25,941 bases of DNA from a virus, in the IMG/VR virus record IMGVR_UViG_3300015371_000783, positions 1 through 25,941 of that record. One strand, given 5' to 3'. Positions 1,065 to 23,933 of the stretch are shown here, piece by piece (within the stretch, counting starts at the first letter, position 1; every line of letters starts with the position of its first letter). Made by a program: the position numbers and the translations under genes. Below the pieces are notes generated by a model, which worked only from the letters and a program-made list of their open reading frames with translations, had not been told where the DNA came from and ran no database searches.

Positions 1065-1096
1065 AATGAGGAATTGTATAAACAAACGGAGAGAAC

Positions 1097-1744
1097 ATGA
1101 AACAACTACTACTCGCAACAGCTGCAAGCATCGGGATGCTGGCATCTGCGAATGCAGCCAACATCGTAACATTGGCACAGACTAGCAACTCCAACACAGT
1201 GACAGCCACTGCGAATGGAGGAGGAACACAGACGACATTGGATATCACCAATGCGACTGTGGCCATTGGTCAGTTCCTTGGGCCTAATCCACTGAATGCA
1301 TTCTTTGGCTTGGATGCAACGAGCACAGACTCAGCTACACAGGTGCTGAATGCAGTGATCCAGCACTATGCAGGCAACTTCTGTCTCACATCCGCAGTGA
1401 ACTGTGGTGGCACTAACTACCTGTCAGGCACATTCACTGATGCTGCATTCGGTGGTCTCGGTGGTCCTGGCCTTGTCGTCAATGTCAACAATCCACCTGA
1501 TACACTGAATCTCACATCGTCTGTGATCCCTGCTGAGGCATTGCAGCCGCCTAACTCGTTTGGCCTTGGCTTCACTAATCTGTCACCTGCATTGTCGATC
1601 GTTGGTTCAACCATCGCGTCGTTCACTGCATCGTTCAGTGGCACTGCATCTGCATCCACTATCAATGTGCCTGAGCCTGCATCTATGGCTGTGCTTGGCT
1701 TCGGTCTGCTTGGTCTTGGCTTGATCCGCTATCGTCATAGCTAG
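1097..1744 (+). CDS. Secreted PEP-CTERM sorting-domain protein
   Basis: A 215-residue exported protein. Residues 1-20 are a Sec signal peptide (Lys, hydrophobic core, small residues ending ANA). Residues 191-215 carry a complete PEP-CTERM signal: VPEPASMAVLGF, a hydrophobic transmembrane stretch and a basic tail RYRHS. In Gram-negative bacteria that make exopolysaccharide, exosortase (EpsH/XrtA type) recognises VPEP and processes such proteins for surface display or release. The mature part is rich in Thr, Ser, Asn, Ala and Gly, with two cysteines in the middle, and I recognise no catalytic domain. GGAGAG at 1088-1093 precedes the ATG. A terminator-like hairpin follows the stop, so it may be an independent moron-type cargo gene. 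Its base use is like its neighbours, which argues against very recent transfer. No exosortase gene is in the window, so host machinery would be required. Confidence 0.85.
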   Translation: MKQLLLATAASIGMLASANAANIVTLAQTSNSNTVTATANGGGTQTTLDITNATVAIGQFLGPNPLNAFFGLDATSTDSATQVLNAVIQHYAGNFCLTSAVNCGGTNYLSGTFTDAAFGGLGGPGLVVNVNNPPDTLNLTSSVIPAEALQPPNSFGLGFTNLSPALSIVGSTIASFTASFSGTASASTINVPEPASMAVLGFGLLGLGLIRYRHS

Positions 1745-1753
1745 TTGACTATG

Positions 1754-1788
1754 GGCCTCGGTGTTCATGCATCGGGGCCTTTGTCATT
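1754..1788 (+). terminator. Probable intrinsic terminator after the PEP-CTERM gene
   Basis: GGCCTCG at 1754-1760 pairs with CGGGGCC at 1773-1779 (7 bp with one G-U, 12-base loop), followed by a T-rich run TTTGTCATTT. It lies 10 bases after the stop codon. The T-run is interrupted, so termination may be partial and the next gene may still be read through. Confidence 0.5.
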
Positions 1789-1799
1789 TGGGGAATGTC

Positions 1800-3752
1800 A
1801 TGTATCCATACATCATCTATGTACCTGCGCCTGATCTGCAACAGCTATTCCTACCAGCCGAGTCACCACCGACTGAACCGCCTGATCCAGTCGCTGAGCC
1901 AAGTGTGCATATAGAGTTCAATGGCTTCAGCGCAATGTTCAACTCTGGTGATGGTGTGGAACTAGATTCATACCATGATCCATCAGGTGCATTCATCCAA
2001 CGATGCATCGTGTGCACCAGTGATACCCTCCCAGGATTCCGTGCCATCTATCGACCAGATGAGAAGAGCATCCGTGAGGAGTGGGTGTTCGAATATGGTG
2101 ATCCATGGATAGACCCACCAACTGCCAATGCACCGCCATACAAAGTGACCATCACACTACGCGATGGAACAACTGTAACCATGGAAGCACCAGTCGGTCA
2201 CTTCTGGTACTCTCGTTGGCGTTGGCAATCAACACCACGTCCTGTGCGTCGCACATACGATCAACTAGCAGCACAGAACCTCATCCCGCACTTCGACACT
2301 ACAGGACTTGTCTTTGGCAATATAGCGACTGTGAGTAACTACACACCCATGGCATACTGTGGCCTACCACCTGGACAGACACAGACAGGTGCATATCCCG
2401 GCCTCGGCATCCAGACAGGATGGCAAACTCAATACCTCACACGTGGTGCACCTGAGTCTTCATTCCGCAACCAAGCAGAGGCCAGTGGCACATACCAAGC
2501 CCATGTGCGTGATACTCGGACACATGCACCAATCAATCTGATAGACGACTATCCCAAGGCCACCATGTATGCGGCCAGCACGGGCACACCGTTCATACCG
2601 CGTGGTCCAGGCGAGAACATCACCGATCAAGGCCACATGCCATCGGTGTCGTATGTCCCATTCCTACTCACTGGTGATCCCTATTATCTAGAGGAGATGC
2701 AGTTCTGGGCCAACCAGAACATGCTGGCTATGCCTGGGAACAGCAGTCGATTCATGGTCTCAGGCAGATACCTTGCATGGCCACTGCGTGCATTGTATGA
2801 ATGCTACATCGCCACGCCTGACACTGTGCCCACGTGGTTCCTCACCAAGTCCTATTGGCTATCATGGGTAGACAAGTGCCGTGGTTTCGTAGAGACACGA
2901 ATGGCAAACAACAGTGATCCATTCTACTATGTGTTCCATACGATCCCTGACACTGGTCAAGTCACTGATCGTGATCCGAACAAAACTGGTGATCACGTAT
3001 GGCAACAGGCCATGTTGCATCTGGTTGCTGCATGGATCGCGTGCACACGGAGCGAATGGATAGAGTCAGCCGAGTGGTTGATCCATAATAGCATAGGACG
3101 ATCAGGCAAGAATGCCGGTTGGTGCAGATCACGTCCTGCTCCATACCACATCCGACTGCAACATGCCTCTGTGCTTCGTGAGGCAATGAACACAACTACT
3201 GATGTGATGCGTATTCAGTATCGACAGGACTTCCAATCCGGTGACACTGTGCGTATCGACTCTGAAGTATTTGTGTTGAAAACAGTATCGCCTGATGGAC
3301 TCGACTGGACATTTGAGAAGAGAACGAAGCCAGCCAATCATGCAACTAAGGCAGCAGTGTATGGCGACAAGTGCTTATCATGGGCTGAGGCTGCTCAGGT
3401 CAATGTGCTAACCTATGGATGGGATGATACAGCTGACAACGATCACTTCTCTTCAAAGACAACAGACATAACCTATCACAGCTACATGCGTGCTGCATTG
3501 GCTCAGGCCATACATGCTGGATTAGATGTGCCAGGACTGGTGGAGGCATATGAATATATGGACAGCGAGATGCGAAGGCTGGTTGCATCCAAGAAGTTGT
3601 TTGTTGGAGATAATTGGTGTGTTGTCCCTGCTGTTGGTGCCGTGCAGCGTCGTTATGCTCATCGTAGTGATGAGTCTGATCCTCAGCACAACTGGGAAAT
3701 GAGTGCACTGCTTGATGAAGTAAGAACAGAGGATGGAGATCCAGATGCCTAG
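1800..3752 (+). CDS. Large hypothetical protein, possible alpha/alpha-toroid (glycan-active or tail-related)
   Basis: A 650-residue protein. The ATG at 1800 has GGGGAA at 1790-1795; an in-frame GTG at 1761 lies inside the upstream terminator and is rejected. The N-terminal 200 residues are Pro-rich and beta-like. From about residue 270 the chain becomes helical and aromatic-rich, with segments such as SYVPFLLTGDPYYLEEMQFW and GRYLAWPLRALYECYIATPD. Repeats of this kind (hydrophobic helix, 'TGD.YYL', long helix) recall alpha/alpha-barrel proteins such as polysaccharide lyases and glycoside hydrolases. A beta segment at about 485-530 interrupts the helical part. No catalytic residues can be assigned with confidence, and there is no signal peptide. 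It lies outside the structural block, next to the PEP-CTERM gene, so a depolymerase, a host-surface protein or an unusual tail protein are all possible. The fold is an inference. Confidence 0.45.
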   Translation: MYPYIIYVPAPDLQQLFLPAESPPTEPPDPVAEPSVHIEFNGFSAMFNSGDGVELDSYHDPSGAFIQRCIVCTSDTLPGFRAIYRPDEKSIREEWVFEYGDPWIDPPTANAPPYKVTITLRDGTTVTMEAPVGHFWYSRWRWQSTPRPVRRTYDQLAAQNLIPHFDTTGLVFGNIATVSNYTPMAYCGLPPGQTQTGAYPGLGIQTGWQTQYLTRGAPESSFRNQAEASGTYQAHVRDTRTHAPINLIDDYPKATMYAASTGTPFIPRGPGENITDQGHMPSVSYVPFLLTGDPYYLEEMQFWANQNMLAMPGNSSRFMVSGRYLAWPLRALYECYIATPDTVPTWFLTKSYWLSWVDKCRGFVETRMANNSDPFYYVFHTIPDTGQVTDRDPNKTGDHVWQQAMLHLVAAWIACTRSEWIESAEWLIHNSIGRSGKNAGWCRSRPAPYHIRLQHASVLREAMNTTTDVMRIQYRQDFQSGDTVRIDSEVFVLKTVSPDGLDWTFEKRTKPANHATKAAVYGDKCLSWAEAAQVNVLTYGWDDTADNDHFSSKTTDITYHSYMRAALAQAIHAGLDVPGLVEAYEYMDSEMRRLVASKKLFVGDNWCVVPAVGAVQRRYAHRSDESDPQHNWEMSALLDEVRTEDGDPDA

Positions 3753-7686: not shown

Positions 7687-7851
7687 ATGGACGAAATTGA
7701 ACACCGTGAACTCTATAACACAGCAGCAGACGCAATCAGTCGCGTCTCTGATCCTGCTATCAAGACAGCACTTGCATTGCTCGGTCAGCTTATCAATGGA
7801 CTGAATGAACGGATCATTGAAATACAGAACTATGAAGAGGATGAAGAGTGA
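7687..7851 (+). CDS. Very small hypothetical protein
   Basis: A 54-residue acidic helical protein. GGAGG at 7676-7680 stands 6 bases before the ATG at 7687; the longer frame back to 7621 overlaps the nuclease gene and lacks a ribosome site. The sequence is two amphipathic helices (YNTAADAISRVSDPAIKTAL and LLGQLINGLNERIIEIQN) ending in a Glu/Asp tail. Its stop TGA is directly abutted by the ATG of the ATPase gene, so it may be a cofactor of, or coupled to, that product. The function is unknown. Confidence 0.65.
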   Translation: MDEIEHRELYNTAADAISRVSDPAIKTALALLGQLINGLNERIIEIQNYEEDEE

Positions 7852-8700
7852 ATGAGTGTTAGCATCACACCAGTAGCACCTGATCCATCCAACATCCAAT
7901 TCGTTGGCTTGATCTGGGGACCAGCAGGTGATGGTAAGACAACACTCGCATCTACTGCACCTGGGAACAAATTGTTCCTCATGCTTGATCCTAATGGTGA
8001 GATGTCACTCGCAGGCAGAGAGGACTGTCGCCACATCTATCAACTGTATAGTGTCAACCCAATCACCGTGTGTGGTGAGTTGAAGAAGGATGATCCGTAT
8101 GGTCTATCCAAGTATGTCAAGGACCATGATATCGAGACAGTCGTGTTGGACAGTGCAACCATGCTGTCTAACATTGCATTGTATGAAGCTGTGCAAAAGA
8201 ACGCAACAGGCCGCAATGCAATCACCTTGGAACAACCAAGCATGGCCGGGTATGCGTATCGCAACGCAGTGGTGCAGCGTGTAGCGAACAATCTGCTACG
8301 CTTGTGTGCCAGACTACATGTGAACCTGATCTTCACTACACATGAGGGTGCTCCTCAGTATGCTGACAATGGTCAGATTGAGAGCATCACCATGATCTTG
8401 TCTGAGAACTTGGCTAATCAGATGGGATTGCGCTTCAACGAAGTGTGGCATCTGCGTGAGAATGGGAACAGTAAGACAATCAGTGTCAAACCACACACCA
8501 AGATGAAGCCAATGAAGACGCGCATGTTCCTGGCTGATAGGCCACAGTTCACATGGCACTTCGATGCAAACACACTGATCGGTGAGGGTATCAGTGATTG
8601 GTGGATTGCATGGAAGCAAAGTGGTGGCAACAAGATTAAGCTGCCATCACAACTTGTTAATTCTGCAACCAAAGGAGGTGCAAAAAAGATGGCCCTCTGA
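7852..8700 (+). CDS. AAA_24/Sak4-like RecA-fold ATPase
   Basis: A 282-residue ATPase. GPAGDGKT at residues 23-30 is Walker A, and ETVVLDSA with D100 is Walker B. 'LIFTTHEG' follows about 70 residues later, as the sensor strand does in RecA-fold phage ATPases. Layout and length match the AAA_24 (PF13479) group, which contains Sak4-type single-strand annealing/recombination ATPases of phages. These work with an SSB-like partner, and a candidate for that lies two genes downstream. It probably acts in strand annealing during recombination or replication restart. A DnaC-like or other helper ATPase role cannot be excluded from sequence alone. Confidence 0.8.
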   Translation: MSVSITPVAPDPSNIQFVGLIWGPAGDGKTTLASTAPGNKLFLMLDPNGEMSLAGREDCRHIYQLYSVNPITVCGELKKDDPYGLSKYVKDHDIETVVLDSATMLSNIALYEAVQKNATGRNAITLEQPSMAGYAYRNAVVQRVANNLLRLCARLHVNLIFTTHEGAPQYADNGQIESITMILSENLANQMGLRFNEVWHLRENGNSKTISVKPHTKMKPMKTRMFLADRPQFTWHFDANTLIGEGISDWWIAWKQSGGNKIKLPSQLVNSATKGGAKKMAL

Positions 8701-11603: not shown

Positions 11604-11624
11604 TCACTATAAGGAACATGTGCA

Positions 11625-11680
11625 ATGAAGATAAAGCTCACACAAGGATACGAAGCACAACTTTGAGGAGGACTAACATC
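11625..11680 (+). pseudogene. Probable N-terminal relic of an AP2/HNH-type homing endonuclease
   Basis: The ATG at 11625 has the best ribosome site in this gap (AAGGAA at 11611-11616, 8 bases) and the GTGCAATG context, but its frame stops after 13 codons: MKIKLTQGYEAQL. 'I.LTQG..A.VDDED' is the hallmark beginning of AP2/HNH homing endonucleases. If one T of the CTTTGAGG at 11661-11668 is dropped, the frame continues L-E-E-D before another stop, as the family would. This looks like a frameshifted, almost fully deleted homing endonuclease just upstream of the polymerase. The alternative is a translated 13-residue leader peptide. Confidence 0.5.
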
Positions 11681-11683
11681 GTG

Positions 11684-14179
11684 ATGCAAGGACCATTCGT
11701 GTCCATTCAGGAAGCAAACCATGACTTGCGAGCCATTACTCTTGCTTCTGGCCTCAGCTTCGATTGCGGTGCTGGTGGCGACATTCGTTCTAGTATTGCT
11801 ATTGTCGCAGAGGCTCCTGGTGAACGAGAACTACAGCAGCACATCCCACTCATCGGTGGATCAGGCAAATACCTATGGGATATTCTACGCAAACACCGCA
11901 TCACACGGAACGATGTATACATTACCAACGTCGTCAAGCGTAAGCTTGTCTCAGCAGCCAACGGGCATGAGCTTACTGACAAGCAAGGCAAGATCACGTT
12001 GCCTAGACAAGAACGACAACAGTGGAGTCATATACTTAGGGAAGAACTCCAGAGGCTGCCCAACTTGCAGTATGTTGTTGCGCTGGGAGGCTATGCACTA
12101 CAGGCCCTCGTTGGAGAATTTGCTATCAGCAAAGCCAGAGGCAGTGTCTTTCCCATCAGGATCGGTGAACATGTTGTGCAGGTCTTGGCAACCTACAACC
12201 CCGCCCACGTGATGCGCGAACCACGCATGGAGATCGTGTTCCGCTTCGACTTAGACAAGTTGCAGCGCATACGCACAGGTGACTTCCATGTTCCACATAT
12301 ATCAACACTCACCAATCCATCGTTCACAGAGGCAATGGATGCGCTCCGTTGGCTACACACTGTCAAAGAGCCAATCGCCTATGACATTGAGACGATGGCT
12401 AATGAGACAGCATGTGTTGGCTTTGCTGCATCGAACACAGAGGCAATTTGTATTAACTTTCGTTCGCAGGGACAGAACCATTATTCACTCAGCGAGGAGC
12501 GGGAAGTCAGACTCGCGATACAATCCGTTCTGGCTAACAAGACACTACGCTTCATCACACAGAATGGCCACTATGATGCTGCGTGGTTATGGTATAAGGA
12601 TCGTATCGCTTGTCACGGCCACCACTTCGACACAATGCTGGCACACCATACTCTATACCCCCCGTTACCGCATGGCCTTGATTTTATCACAGCACAGTAT
12701 ACAGACCATCCCTATTACAAAGATGAAGGCAAGCTATGGAAAGAAGATGGCGATATAGATGCATTCTGGGAATACAATGGCAAGGACTGTTGCATCACTC
12801 GCACTGTGTATGAGAAGATGGATGCTGAACTACACCAGCATGGCCTTGCTGACTTCTTCTACAACCATGTGATGCGCTTGCAGCCTGAACTGATCAGTGC
12901 ATCAGTCAATGGAGTGATGTCAGATGTCGGAAGAAAAGACAAGCTCGCAGATGAACTCGGACGAAGCTTGGAGGAGGCAAAGCAACTATGCCAAGTTAAG
13001 GCTCGTGATGCAACTGGAATACCAACATACGAATTTAATCCCAACAGTTCTCATCAACTCGGTGAACTCTTCTTTGGCCAACTACAACTGGTCGGACGAG
13101 GAACGTCAACTGATGCGGAGAATCGTGAGCGTATTAGAAAAAATCCAAGAACAAGCCGCGCAGCTAGGGAACTTGTTGATGCCATTGACACCTATAAGGA
13201 ACAAGCTAAATTCGTCTCCACTTACGTTGGTGCAGAACCAGACAGCGACGGACGGTGGCGATGCACCTACAAGCAAACAGGAGTTGCCTCAGCCCCAGGC
13301 AGATTGAGCAGCAGCCAGACCCATTGGGGTAGTGGGCTCAACATGCAGAACATACCAGAGAATGCAAAGGACATGTTCATTGCACCCCCTGGTTGGGAGT
13401 TTAGTTACTACGACATGTCACAAATCGAAGCTCGCATTGTAGCATATTTAGCTGACATCCCCGTGTGGAAACAGCAGTTTGAACAAGCACGCTTGCATCC
13501 TGGCTCATATGATGCTCATTGTGCACTAGCAGCAGATATGTTCAAGGTGCCCTATGAGCAAGTTCCTCGAAAGGATCGGGACGCGGACGGACAGCCGACC
13601 ATCCGATATGTTGCCAAACGATGTCGGCATGGCCTCAACTATCGCATGGCCCCAGACAAGCTTTCCACCGTCACAGGTCTGTCACAGGTTGAAGCCGAAC
13701 GGGCATACCGACTATACCATATGGCGAGTCCAGAGATCGCCGTGTGGTGGGATGATGTTATTGAACTCGTGCGACGGGAGCAACGCATCACTACTTGTTG
13801 TGGTAGACGATGGTTATTGATGGAGCGATTTGACGTAAATGCACTAGACAGCATCATCGCCTTCGAGCCTCAGTCGATCAATGGAGATCACACAAGCAGT
13901 GTGATCTACAAATGCCATAACGATCCTCAGTGGCCCTCCACCGCTAGGATCGTTATCAACGTCCACGATGCGAACATTGCACTCAATCGCATCGTGGACG
14001 GACCGCAAGTGCGTGCGATCATGAAGCATCATGCTGAGCAACCACTCATGATCAATAGCATCCACAACCGACTGCATGGTATCAACAAGCCTGAACCACT
14101 GATCGTGCCCGCTGAGATGGGCGTATCACGAGCAGGCAATGATGGCGTGCATCGCTGGTCAACGATTGAGAAGATATAG
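11684..14179 (+). CDS. DNA polymerase, family A, with N-terminal uracil-DNA-glycosylase-like domain
   Basis: An 831-residue fusion. Residues 38-180 resemble family 4/5 uracil-DNA glycosylase: EAPGE (43-47), VYITNVVK (78-85), VALGG (132-136) and NPAHVMR (172-178, in place of HPS...R). Residues 229-400 are a 3'-5' exonuclease with DIE (D234, E236) and NGHYD (294-298), then NGKDCCIT. The polymerase has motif A YYDMSQIE (D577), motif B R641...K645...GLNYR and motif C VHDA (H761, D762). Here the usual motif C Glu is Ala763. It copies the phage genome; the N-terminal domain may sense or remove uracil. The family 4 Fe-S cysteines are not present (R86 where VVKC is usual). GGAGG at 11667-11671 serves the ATG at 11684 or the GTG at 11681; an upstream ATG at 11618 has almost no spacing to its ribosome site. 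Confidence 0.9.
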   Translation: MQGPFVSIQEANHDLRAITLASGLSFDCGAGGDIRSSIAIVAEAPGERELQQHIPLIGGSGKYLWDILRKHRITRNDVYITNVVKRKLVSAANGHELTDKQGKITLPRQERQQWSHILREELQRLPNLQYVVALGGYALQALVGEFAISKARGSVFPIRIGEHVVQVLATYNPAHVMREPRMEIVFRFDLDKLQRIRTGDFHVPHISTLTNPSFTEAMDALRWLHTVKEPIAYDIETMANETACVGFAASNTEAICINFRSQGQNHYSLSEEREVRLAIQSVLANKTLRFITQNGHYDAAWLWYKDRIACHGHHFDTMLAHHTLYPPLPHGLDFITAQYTDHPYYKDEGKLWKEDGDIDAFWEYNGKDCCITRTVYEKMDAELHQHGLADFFYNHVMRLQPELISASVNGVMSDVGRKDKLADELGRSLEEAKQLCQVKARDATGIPTYEFNPNSSHQLGELFFGQLQLVGRGTSTDAENRERIRKNPRTSRAARELVDAIDTYKEQAKFVSTYVGAEPDSDGRWRCTYKQTGVASAPGRLSSSQTHWGSGLNMQNIPENAKDMFIAPPGWEFSYYDMSQIEARIVAYLADIPVWKQQFEQARLHPGSYDAHCALAADMFKVPYEQVPRKDRDADGQPTIRYVAKRCRHGLNYRMAPDKLSTVTGLSQVEAERAYRLYHMASPEIAVWWDDVIELVRREQRITTCCGRRWLLMERFDVNALDSIIAFEPQSINGDHTSSVIYKCHNDPQWPSTARIVINVHDANIALNRIVDGPQVRAIMKHHAEQPLMINSIHNRLHGINKPEPLIVPAEMGVSRAGNDGVHRWSTIEKI

Positions 14180-20849: not shown

Positions 20850-21914
20850 TTAGCTCCAGTCACTCGCTGCTTGACGTTCTGCATCTGTGTAACCGCTGCT
20901 CTTGTTGCCACTACCACTGAACCAATCGCTGAGTTGCTTGATCGCATCCTGTCCCACACCACCCTTACCGAACATGGTGCTGAGGTCCTTCAGCCCACTG
21001 ATGGTCTGGTTCAATCCGAAGTTAGGATCAGGAATGTTCTTCCTGGCTGCATCATATCCAGCATTCAATCCTTGTATTGCTGCATTGGCTCCTGTGGCAC
21101 CATATGCAGATGACATAGGAGCATTTGCTGAACGCTGTGCCAACATAGTAGCCAATGCACTACCCTGATTACTACTCGCACCACCTGTGCTCTGCAAGTT
21201 GGGTGTCGCTAGAGTACTGGCATTAGCAGCAGCATTCTCCAATCCACTGCGACGTGACTGGTTCATCGCATCAGTCTGTGTCATACCAGTGATCAGTGCA
21301 TCACGTAGTGAGTTGCGTAGGTTCTGTGCTTCACCTGCACCAAGCTGTGCAATCACAGGCCCAGCCGCAGTGCCAGTGCGCTGTGTGGTCCGCAACACAT
21401 CATTCCTCAGTGGATCATATGCTTCACGTGCAGCAGTGGTTGCTTGATTAGTTAACAGACCAATTAACTGATCCTGTCCTCTTGGCCTGAAGTTCTCTAA
21501 GTCCCTACGTGTCGTATCAGCATAACCACCAGCTTCCATTGCACGGCGCAATGCTTCCTGATTGGCCAAGCGCACACGTGCAGGATCAGTTGTGTTCGCT
21601 GTAATATTCGCTTGCATGGCTGCACGATCAGCAGCCTGTGGCAAATCACCTAGCTTGGATACCCACGTGTTAGTCGTGGGATCATACTGCATAGATGAAC
21701 CGAAGCTATCTCTCGTACCAGCAATAGCACGCTGATTGATCATAGCTTGAACAGCTTGCTGTTGAGCAGCGTTCTGCTTCTGGAAGTCTAGCTGCTCTCT
21801 GCTCAGCCTGTTCTGTTCTTGTGCAGCCGCATTGCTACGTGCTGATCCTGCACTACTCGCAGCAGCACCGAGTATCCCTGATAGGAGTGCCGCACCGGCA
21901 GTGACGAATGCCAT
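20850..21914 (-). CDS. Internal virion protein, gp14-like by composition and place
   Basis: A 354-residue protein. Residues 2-22 (AFVTAGAALLSGILGAAASS) form a small-residue hydrophobic helix, followed at 27-60 by a Gln/Asn/Arg-rich coiled coil (AQEQNRLSREQLDFQKQNAA). This is the layout of T7 gp14-type internal virion proteins, which insert in the outer membrane during DNA ejection. The rest is Ala/Asn/Thr/Gln-rich and helical, with a Gly/Ser-rich stretch towards the end. Its ATG shares one base with the stop of the upstream GNAT gene. There is no cleavage site that would make residues 2-22 an ordinary Sec signal. The assignment is by layout, not by motif. Confidence 0.6.
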   Translation of the reverse strand: MAFVTAGAALLSGILGAAASSAGSARSNAAAQEQNRLSREQLDFQKQNAAQQQAVQAMINQRAIAGTRDSFGSSMQYDPTTNTWVSKLGDLPQAADRAAMQANITANTTDPARVRLANQEALRRAMEAGGYADTTRRDLENFRPRGQDQLIGLLTNQATTAAREAYDPLRNDVLRTTQRTGTAAGPVIAQLGAGEAQNLRNSLRDALITGMTQTDAMNQSRRSGLENAAANASTLATPNLQSTGGASSNQGSALATMLAQRSANAPMSSAYGATGANAAIQGLNAGYDAARKNIPDPNFGLNQTISGLKDLSTMFGKGGVGQDAIKQLSDWFSGSGNKSSGYTDAERQAASDWS

Positions 21915-22369
21915 TACCTGATATCCTTCACATAGCTAGTCTCTTCAGCTTTGTATCCATGCTTGATGAACAGTGGATCATCAGGGTAGATCAGCCTAAA
22001 GTTGTGCACGATGTGTGTCACACCTTGTGCCTTCAGCCATTGCTCGGCATAGTCCATTAGATAACTACCGACACCATGGTTCCTATGATCAGGATGCACA
22101 GCGATCATATCACACGTGGCTAACACCTGACGATGATGCATATGCGCATGCATGAAGTAGTTCACAAACCCACGCAATCTGTGTGGCTGGTTGTCTTCTC
22201 GTGCAGTTACAAACAACAATCGACCACGTGCATCCAGTTCCTTATATGCATCCCACTTGAACTCCAATGGGTCCATGCCTTCGCCAGCACGTGTTGCACC
22301 GAAGTAGTAGTGCACTAAGTCACTGACCTCATCGGCTGCTTCTGGCATGTGTTCTCTTGCATACTTCAT
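21914..22369 (-). CDS. GNAT-family acetyltransferase (second copy in reading order)
   Basis: A 151-residue single-domain GNAT. The acetyl-CoA loop is seen in CDMIAVHPDHRNHGVGSYLM, with R96-x-x-G99-x-G101 (the Q/R-x-x-G-x-G/A motif A) after beta strand 4 and before the helix DYAEQWLKAQG. Near the end, 'DPLFIKHGYKAEET' is the usual motif B region ('F..HGF'). It should transfer an acyl group from acyl-CoA to an amine; the substrate is unknown. It lies between two internal-virion-like genes and overlaps both neighbours by one base, so it may act in the virion or modify the neighbouring proteins. GNAT-like proteins occupy a comparable position in T7-like tail/internal protein blocks. Confidence 0.8.
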   Translation of the reverse strand: MKYAREHMPEAADEVSDLVHYYFGATRAGEGMDPLEFKWDAYKELDARGRLLFVTAREDNQPHRLRGFVNYFMHAHMHHRQVLATCDMIAVHPDHRNHGVGSYLMDYAEQWLKAQGVTHIVHNFRLIYPDDPLFIKHGYKAEETSYVKDIR

Positions 22370-23478
22370 CAGAATGCACCTGTGTTACCAAGCCCACGCT
22401 TGCGTGTCGCCAACTCCTCATCCGGTGTCAGTGCTGTGCCTGTGCCAATACCAGTTGGATTGGTAGCAGTTGGGTTGTTCGCTCCCTGTGCAGCACCACC
22501 AGCATTCAGCAGATCAGTGAGATCAGCAAACTGGCTATTACCAACAGCATTCCGCAATGCACCACCGAAGTTGGTCATGTCACGTGCAACCAGATCATTC
22601 GCACGTGTCCTATACGACTCAGGATCAAACTGTCCACTAAGCGACAGATTGGATATGTCACTGCGACCACCACTGATCAGATCATCCAATCCTGACCGAT
22701 ATCCGCTCAGTATGTTAGCTCCTAGGTTGCTCACGGTATCACGTGCTGCACTCTTCTTCTGGTTCAGTCGAGCTAATGCTGCCTGATATCCAGTGTCAGT
22801 CAGCGTGCTGCGCTTCTGTGCATTGGTCAGTTGTGCAGTCAGTGGATCGAATTGCTCGTTTACTATCGTGTCGATGTAGCTTCCAGTCGTGGTGTCAGGG
22901 ATCGCTGTAGTTGAATAGTTGGGATTGAAGATACTGTTGTATTGATTACTAAGCTGTGACCGCCGATCACTGGTCGCTTGGTTCAGTATCGTCTGTCCCA
23001 GCGACGAGGGGAATGCACCATACGGATTGGGGTCCATATCCTGTATGCTGTTATACGTCCTACTCAGTGTGGGGTCGATGTAGTTTGCCCGATAGGCATT
23101 GGGATCAACACCCGCGTTCGAGAATGAACGTAGCGTATCCTGCAATGCAGCATCATATGCGCCTTGTCGATTTGTATTAAACGTCGCCCTGTCCGCAGCA
23201 GTCTTTGTGTCAGCAGCTTGCTGGGTTGTGAGTGCTGTCTGAGCTTCTCTGTCCTTGCGTGCTCGTATCGCATCATTCAATTGCTCAGCCGCTGTCTTAC
23301 CACCTTGATACATAGACCAAGGACTGCTGGTGTATGCTTCACCAGTGGCAGGATCAGTAAGTGTGGTCTCATCCCACCATGTCTTACCACCGCCGCCACC
23401 TCCACCACCACCGCCTTTGCCACCACGCAGACCAGCAAAGGTAAGCCTATCTATCTGACCACCGGGAGTGAACATCAT
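22369..23478 (-). CDS. Low-complexity internal virion-like protein with poly-Gly run
   Basis: A 369-residue protein. Near residue 20 there is a run of ten Gly flanked by Lys, followed by a Trp pair (KTWWDETTL). Residues 60-270 are helical and Asn/Gln/Thr/Ala/Asp-rich (LTTQQAADTKTAADRATFN, LTNAQKRSTLTDTGYQAALA), and the C-terminus is Asn/Thr/Gly-rich. It has no cysteines and no enzyme motif. The start is the first of two consecutive ATGs (23478 or 23475). It overlaps both GNAT genes. The composition fits the internal or ejection proteins of podoviruses, but no family can be named. Confidence 0.55.
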   Translation of the reverse strand: MMFTPGGQIDRLTFAGLRGGKGGGGGGGGGGKTWWDETTLTDPATGEAYTSSPWSMYQGGKTAAEQLNDAIRARKDREAQTALTTQQAADTKTAADRATFNTNRQGAYDAALQDTLRSFSNAGVDPNAYRANYIDPTLSRTYNSIQDMDPNPYGAFPSSLGQTILNQATSDRRSQLSNQYNSIFNPNYSTTAIPDTTTGSYIDTIVNEQFDPLTAQLTNAQKRSTLTDTGYQAALARLNQKKSAARDTVSNLGANILSGYRSGLDDLISGGRSDISNLSLSGQFDPESYRTRANDLVARDMTNFGGALRNAVGNSQFADLTDLLNAGGAAQGANNPTATNPTGIGTGTALTPDEELATRKRGLGNTGAF

Positions 23479-23933
23479 CGCCTGTTCCTGAATATCGTGC
23501 CATACCGTTCGAAGCCCATGCGCTTATACAGTGCATCGACACCAACCGTAGCTGTCCCAGCTATATCACCACTCTGCACCATCACAGCGCCATTGTCGTA
23601 GCACCACTGCACGAAGCCCTTCATCAGCATCATGCCGATCTTGGCTCTGCTTGGTGTCCCTTCACGCACATACCATCCATGTTCCATGCCGAAGCGCACA
23701 GGAGCGAATGAGAACTGCTGCATGAATCCATACACGCCACCTACATACACACCATTCATATTGGCAAGACGGAAGTAATGGTCCTTATCATCCATGACAT
23801 GCAGCAGATATCCGAAGTAGTAGTCCCATACGAATGGCACTTCATCTCTCAGCGATCCAAGGTCCTTCAACTCCTTAGTCAGCGCACAGGCATGTGCTAC
23901 ATTGTTCACGTCCAGTCGCTCTATCTCTATCAC
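23475..23933 (-). CDS. GNAT-like acetyltransferase (first copy in reading order)
   Basis: A 152-residue protein with the GNAT fold pattern: an N-terminal 'IEIERLDVNNVAHACALTKE' (beta1-alpha1), a central beta sheet (GVYVGGVYGFM, EHGWYVRE), then SRAKIGMMLMKGFVQW as the loop and helix of motif A, and YKRMGFERYGTIFR as motif B. The acetyl-CoA loop is weaker than in the other copy (R96-A-K-I-G100), so activity is less certain. It sits between the tail nozzle gene and the poly-Gly protein gene, with 4-base overlaps on both sides. The substrate is unknown. It could be a virion protein of GNAT fold. Confidence 0.7.
   Translation of the reverse strand: MIEIERLDVNNVAHACALTKELKDLGSLRDEVPFVWDYYFGYLLHVMDDKDHYFRLANMNGVYVGGVYGFMQQFSFAPVRFGMEHGWYVREGTPSRAKIGMMLMKGFVQWCYDNGAVMVQSGDIAGTATVGVDALYKRMGFERYGTIFRNRR

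Follow-up and report, generated by a model that had tools for sequence, protein, structure and literature searches.

A phage-borne PEP-CTERM protein with a conserved sorting signal and exchangeable cargo, a candidate substrate of host exosortases

The window analysed here, a 25,941-base IMG/VR virus contig that is itself a fragment, carries at positions 1097-1744 (+) an open reading frame of 215 amino acids with an ATG start, which its sequence features confirm as a genuine phage-encoded PEP-CTERM protein and whose routing to the exosortase pathway is, on the same features, well supported. We give an even chance to the reading that this gene is a phage moron whose product is an exosortase substrate that ends up at the infected cell's surface or in its matrix, where it would most likely alter adsorption. 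The gene, its parts and its downstream neighbour are as follows:

1088..1093 (+): GGAGAG, ribosome-binding-site-like, 3 nt 5' of the ATG, identified by reading the sequence
1097..1156 (+): Sec-type signal peptide, residues 1-20, MKQLLLATAASIGMLASANA, from the sequence and, in relatives, from a simple Sec-signal test
1157..1666 (+): mature domain, residues 21-190, a predicted beta-barrel, from alignments and AlphaFold2
1667..1738 (+): PEP-CTERM sorting signal, residues 191-214, PF07589 above cut-off
1753..1780 (+): intrinsic terminator-like hairpin directly 3' of the gene, a 12 bp stem followed by a T-rich stretch
1800..3752 (+): neighbouring gene, about 650 amino acids, AlphaFold2 pLDDT 89.3, with alternative upstream starts at 1761 and 1767

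The predicted signal peptide ends as MKQLLLATAASIGMLASANA^A and the C-terminus reads VPEPASMAVLGFGLLGLGLIRYRHS, with residues 191-214 running from a PEP motif through a hydrophobic stretch to an RYRH tail. PF07589 matches the window protein with 25.5 bits in a protein scan (cut-off 20.7) and the window itself with 29.5 bits in a genome search (E 3.5e-8); as a control for chance, it matches in none of 14 control genomes. The NCBIfam model TIGR02595 is narrowly missed (15.5 bits, cut-off 16), and the model of the flocculation-associated protein PepA, NF033554, scores 30.7 bits over residues 10-214 against a cut-off of 80. A profile of the C-terminal tail found a PEP-CTERM gene in 0 of 80 bacterial loci around related terminases. 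Upstream, AGG-rich stretches also precede the gene in most relatives, and a search for a sigma-70-like promoter near the window gene found none. Downstream, the segment 1745-1795 folds with -25.2 kcal/mol (z -5.5); a terminator as a general trait of the family is not supported, with 14 of 63 members having one against 12 of 113 control genes.

Pattern searches of viral contigs reveal a large family around this protein. A first scan with six patterns, one of them in the tail, returned 34 relatives, and a second with two mature-domain patterns returned 104 related viral contigs. The 80 best were retained; going by the dataset numbers that form part of the contig names, they represent about 70 metagenome datasets. 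Gene counts were taken from a profile search. Identity to the window protein ranges from 46 to 62% in an alignment of 53 members, whose invariant core reads GxF...LxGxFxDAAxG...PPxxL, the mature-domain core in the family alignments being GxFxDAAxGxxGGPGLxVNVNNPPDxL. Sixteen alignment columns are invariant, 14 of them within the mature domain, and E193 and P194 are the sole invariant residues outside it. The E-P pair, hydrophobic stretch and basic tail are present in 67 of 67 non-redundant members (full P-E-P in 55), and a Sec-like signal is detected by a simple rule in 60 of the 62 full-length members. Because nearly all members were recruited via the mature domain, the conservation of the tag is a largely unbiased test, and the first-pass annotation, which had described a phage PEP-CTERM gene with a Sec signal and a complete sorting tail, is borne out by the PF07589 match, the tails and the viral context. 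Pooled dN/dS ratios of 0.41 for the signal, 0.48 for the mature part and 0.37 for the tail, which are rough at high dS, and values below 0.2 for the mature domain in many close pairs fit purifying selection on all three parts.

A signal peptide and a C-terminal helix would anchor a protein in any Gram-negative host, and no exosortase above cut-off was found on the phage contigs; the product might accordingly stay unprocessed as a periplasmic protein at the inner membrane and act there, for example, against the DNA entry of a second phage. We consider this very unlikely, given that in each of the 67 members E-P immediately precedes the helix and that the tail specifically matches bacterial PEP-CTERM proteins. 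Indeed, the invariance of E193 and P194 counts for the sorting reading, as a plain membrane anchor would not require them.

Outside viruses, the mature domain and the tail behave differently. Searched separately from the tail, as the first-pass annotation had proposed, the mature region has relatives in viral contigs and none among 84,980 bacterial and archaeal genomes scanned by pattern, a method that detects a gene only if it contains one of two short patterns. When 754 proteobacterial genomes, 369 of the class to which an Azospira genome belongs and 385 of that of an alphaproteobacterial MAG, were searched with a profile, matches appeared in 76 and 38 genomes, respectively, mainly at profile positions ~150-216, which correspond to the PEP-CTERM end; the best reaches at most 40 bits, true members scoring about 200-320, and the few weak matches that extend into the body (e.g., 102-214, 32.5 bits) were counted as uninformative. 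A second cargo family, FAM1, occurs in 20 viral loci, and its profile again gave mainly tail-region matches in 274 genomes, while the named phages and plasmids in the collections searched held no convincing relative. The address tag is therefore common with bacteria, and the cargo looks virus-only within the searches made.

The first-pass annotation had also placed the gene among phage genes, and this holds both for the viral flanks in the window and for the relatives, which adjoin genes for the terminase large subunit, two kinds of portal, a head maturation protease, head morphogenesis and the major head protein. The plus strand of the window carries replication genes (exonuclease-like, Sak4-like annealing protein, RecD/Dda-like helicase, UDG-PolA fusion and primase) and the minus strand a block of probable virion genes, with an HNH endonuclease also among the viral genes. 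Misassembly and bacterial flanks, named in the same annotation as what would undo its reading, find no support, and misassembly or bacterial contamination was rejected as an explanation, as the gene recurs across the ~70 datasets beside phage structural genes. Recent capture of a host gene is likewise not supported: the GC content of the gene follows that of its contig from 39 to 68% (r 0.97), and no bacterial source was found.

Within the family the position of the gene differs, before the terminase, after it, after the portal or after the capsid gene, and its placement varies even inside syntenic blocks. The first-pass annotation had asked whether related phages carry the gene at the same site: some of them do, but over the family as a whole the position moves and the cargo can be swapped. 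Most terminase relatives are without the PEP-CTERM gene; among those in viral contigs, it was found only in the contigs of the same phages and in L247, whose terminase is 70% identical and is directly followed by a FAM1 gene. Morons are extra genes of varying position that are absent from relatives, and these traits are observed here; of the promoter and terminator that a moron would also bring along, the window gene shows the terminator-like hairpin. As the gene often lies between terminase, portal and capsid genes, its product could in principle be a virion component assembled with the products of the late genes, a reading that we find hardly credible in view of the Sec-like signal in nearly all members, the variable position and the absence from most terminase relatives. 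Nor would one expect a Sec-exported protein in the virion of a tailed phage. A search confined to tyrosine integrases found none in 31 of 34 phage records; this fits use in lytic growth, weakly so because the contigs are mostly fragments.

Several other genes of these contigs deserve mention in their own right. In the window, the HNH endonuclease (56-562, +) has a C-terminal helix-turn-helix, and the gene after it (537-800, +) encodes a small protein whose zinc ribbon is NrdR-like; a DNA polymerase A (11618-14179, +) is fused to an N-terminal uracil-DNA-glycosylase domain (residues 54-204) and has distant relatives in Microcystis, Desulfofustis and uncultured phages; and two GNAT acetyltransferase genes, both phrog_1249 (21914-22369 and 23475-23933, both -), are interleaved with probable virion genes. 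Among the relatives, cluster c4 encodes a proline-rich repeat protein of ~184 amino acids with HPDQGLPG, DNTLPG and RPSNELPG units and without a signal peptide, for which a Pfam search gave no match; it is present in 20 loci (L012, L013, L025, L040, L042, L043, L072, L075, L080 and 11 others), in 8 of which it immediately precedes the PEP-CTERM gene.

The tail profile further uncovered, in viral loci, PEP-CTERM genes of about a dozen families with no detectable similarity between their mature parts, although some of the single-member families may be distantly related to one another; the genes often stand in tandem, two or three together, as in L017. Two loci, L051 (FAM0) and L142 (FAM5), carry genes of different families at the same site between flanks of 79-88% DNA identity, including the neighbouring c24 gene. 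Their PEP-CTERM genes are 82% identical over the first ~75 nt and again over the last ~105 nt, and 50% identical over the cargo, which is the level of unrelated sequences under global alignment: the cargo has been swapped between a constant signal and a constant tail. In L014 and L018 the mature part is nearly identical and the signal differs (dN 0.01 and 1.03, respectively), which suggests three modules, signal, cargo and tail, each exchanged on its own. Furthermore, like PEP-CTERM genes are found beside unlike terminases, as in L075 and L082 (proteins 81% identical, terminases 22%) and in L061 and L081 (gene body 94%, portal DNA 83%, terminases 18%), so that the gene and its parts pass between phages. 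Joint descent with the terminase was rejected as an account of the distribution, the link between the two being modest only (Mantel r 0.39, p 0.003). We see equal weight for and against the broader proposal that phages share an exchangeable set of exosortase-addressed cargoes, in which virus-only domains are swapped behind a constant signal and PEP-CTERM tail and would remodel the host surface or matrix in a host-exosortase-dependent manner. The first-pass interpretation as a whole is partly supported, and the gene is carried by related and unrelated phages alike; an effect on superinfection, aggregation or receptor masking, and a host range limited to exosortase carriers, stand as proposals.

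AlphaFold2 models the window protein (mean pLDDT 87.4) as an all-beta barrel followed by a C-terminal helix at residues 195-214. Foldseek gave no match for the model in the PDB at E <= 0.001, the values lying above 0.1, and none in BFVD, and a PDB sequence search with the protein likewise gave no match. The highest VIA Z was 9.2, for 7x86; other common small barrels scored only slightly lower, and dirigent-type barrels were among the weak likenesses. All these were rejected as relatives and taken as a common arrangement only. As modelled, the cargo fold gives no functional reading.

The neighbouring gene product is modelled as a beta domain and an alpha/alpha barrel, for which VIA reports a Z of 13.3 to the polysaccharide lyase 5noa and to GH105/GH88 chains. 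Its inserted beta domain resembles phage tailspike and baseplate parts, residues 454-523 matching the LKA1 tailspike at 1.6 A over 66 residues; Foldseek returned nothing significant for the model (E at best 0.02). The predicted fold of the neighbour resembles that of GH105/GH88 enzymes and polysaccharide lyases, at ~10% identity and with the inserted phage-tail beta domain as a distinguishing feature. We regard it, as a lead, as a probable tail-associated polysaccharide-active protein, and the model suggests a tail enzyme directed against exopolysaccharide, which fits a host that makes such polymers. The family has no Pfam or PHROG match; an alignment-based search found relatives in 56 viral loci, a single-sequence scan having given none, and PEP-CTERM genes are near these relatives in 11 of 55 loci, in part because some are the same contigs. 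Loci L092-L146 represent the neighbour family, which in L110 and L111 is part of a 1000-residue protein.

With such a neighbour, and with weak fold likenesses that include dirigent-type barrels, the cargo might serve as a matrix adhesin or aggregation factor, the barrel binding polysaccharide or neighbouring cells and keeping infected cells in the floc or virions in the matrix; in bacteria that form flocs, PEP-CTERM proteins are considered components of the matrix (PMC9850573). We nonetheless judge this role fairly unlikely, since neither Foldseek nor VIA yields a confident fold match, no binding site was identified, and many unrelated cargo domains would need to do the same job.

A search of 36 phage records for exosortase (PF09721) gave no match above cut-off, and the phage would therefore rely on the exosortase of its host. 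One contig, G005 (that of L011), has at 7700-7870 (+) a partial exosortase match of 15.5 bits over 56 model positions (cut-off 25.7). Exosortase is present in 5 of 10 bacteria with related terminases, bacteria that are not established hosts. Host inference found no tRNA genes in 38 loci and obtained nothing via named phages, and the best prophage terminase relative, at 60% identity, is too distant for naming a host.

According to the exosortase literature (Haft 2006 via PMC12188702; PMC9850573), substrates of this route are exported by Sec, cleaved by exosortase and then deposited at the cell surface or within the matrix. By analogy with this family knowledge, we propose that the phage protein would be made during infection and exported via the host Sec system, and that its C-terminal helix would hold it until the host exosortase cuts at the PEP motif, releasing the beta-barrel cargo or attaching it to the cell surface or exopolysaccharide matrix. 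The cargo could then mask receptor or matrix and so keep newly arriving phages, or progeny of the phage itself that run into debris, from being captured. Membership of the family makes processing by exosortase and surface placement probable, and the block on adsorption is the least certain step. That cargoes are exchanged behind a constant address would suit a task exposed to shifting pressure, for instance the blocking of different receptors, and would suit an adhesin role too. The superinfection-exclusion proteins of phages such as T5 are early products, and the position of many members among late structural genes was counted against such a role.

The same route could be exploited by a decoy, whereby the phage substrate floods the host exosortase and leaves host matrix proteins unsorted, so that floc or biofilm is loosened and lysis or spread eased, and the cargo hardly matters. 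Host PEP-CTERM proteins are required for floc formation (PMC9850573), the tail is strictly kept although the cargo is swappable, and tandem genes would increase the dose. A pure decoy needs no conserved barrel, however, and with the mature domain under purifying selection and holding 14 of the 16 invariant columns we rate this possibility as distinctly improbable.

Exosortase sorting has been described as bacterial and tied to exopolysaccharide and floc formation, and our search of the open-access literature found no paper connecting PEP-CTERM with phage genes. If the preferred reading of a surface-placed exosortase substrate is true, a large, conserved, virus-only substrate family would mean that phages exploit the exosortase pathway; it would supply small, defined proteins as probes of exosortase function, predict a need for exosortase-carrying hosts and present a clear case of cargo swap behind a fixed address.

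Compared with known systems, the phage proteins share the Sec signal, PEP motif, hydrophobic stretch and basic tail of the bacterial PEP-CTERM/exosortase system (PF07589, PF09721) but differ from it in being phage-encoded, mobile and swappable in a cargo that was not found in bacteria, and in coming from contigs without exosortase. PepA (NF033554) is similar in size and layout, yet the window protein falls far below its cut-off and is not a member. Prophage-borne LPXTG surface proteins of Gram-positive bacteria also combine a phage gene with a host sortase-like route; the enzyme, signal and host group differ, and those systems are prophages, whereas most contigs here are without tyrosine integrase. 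Finally, the superinfection-exclusion lipoprotein Llp of the virulent phage T5, which acts on FhuA from the periplasm, is likewise a small exported envelope protein of a phage (PMC9586334), a likeness of purpose only between a lipoprotein and a protein to which it has no sequence or sorting relation.
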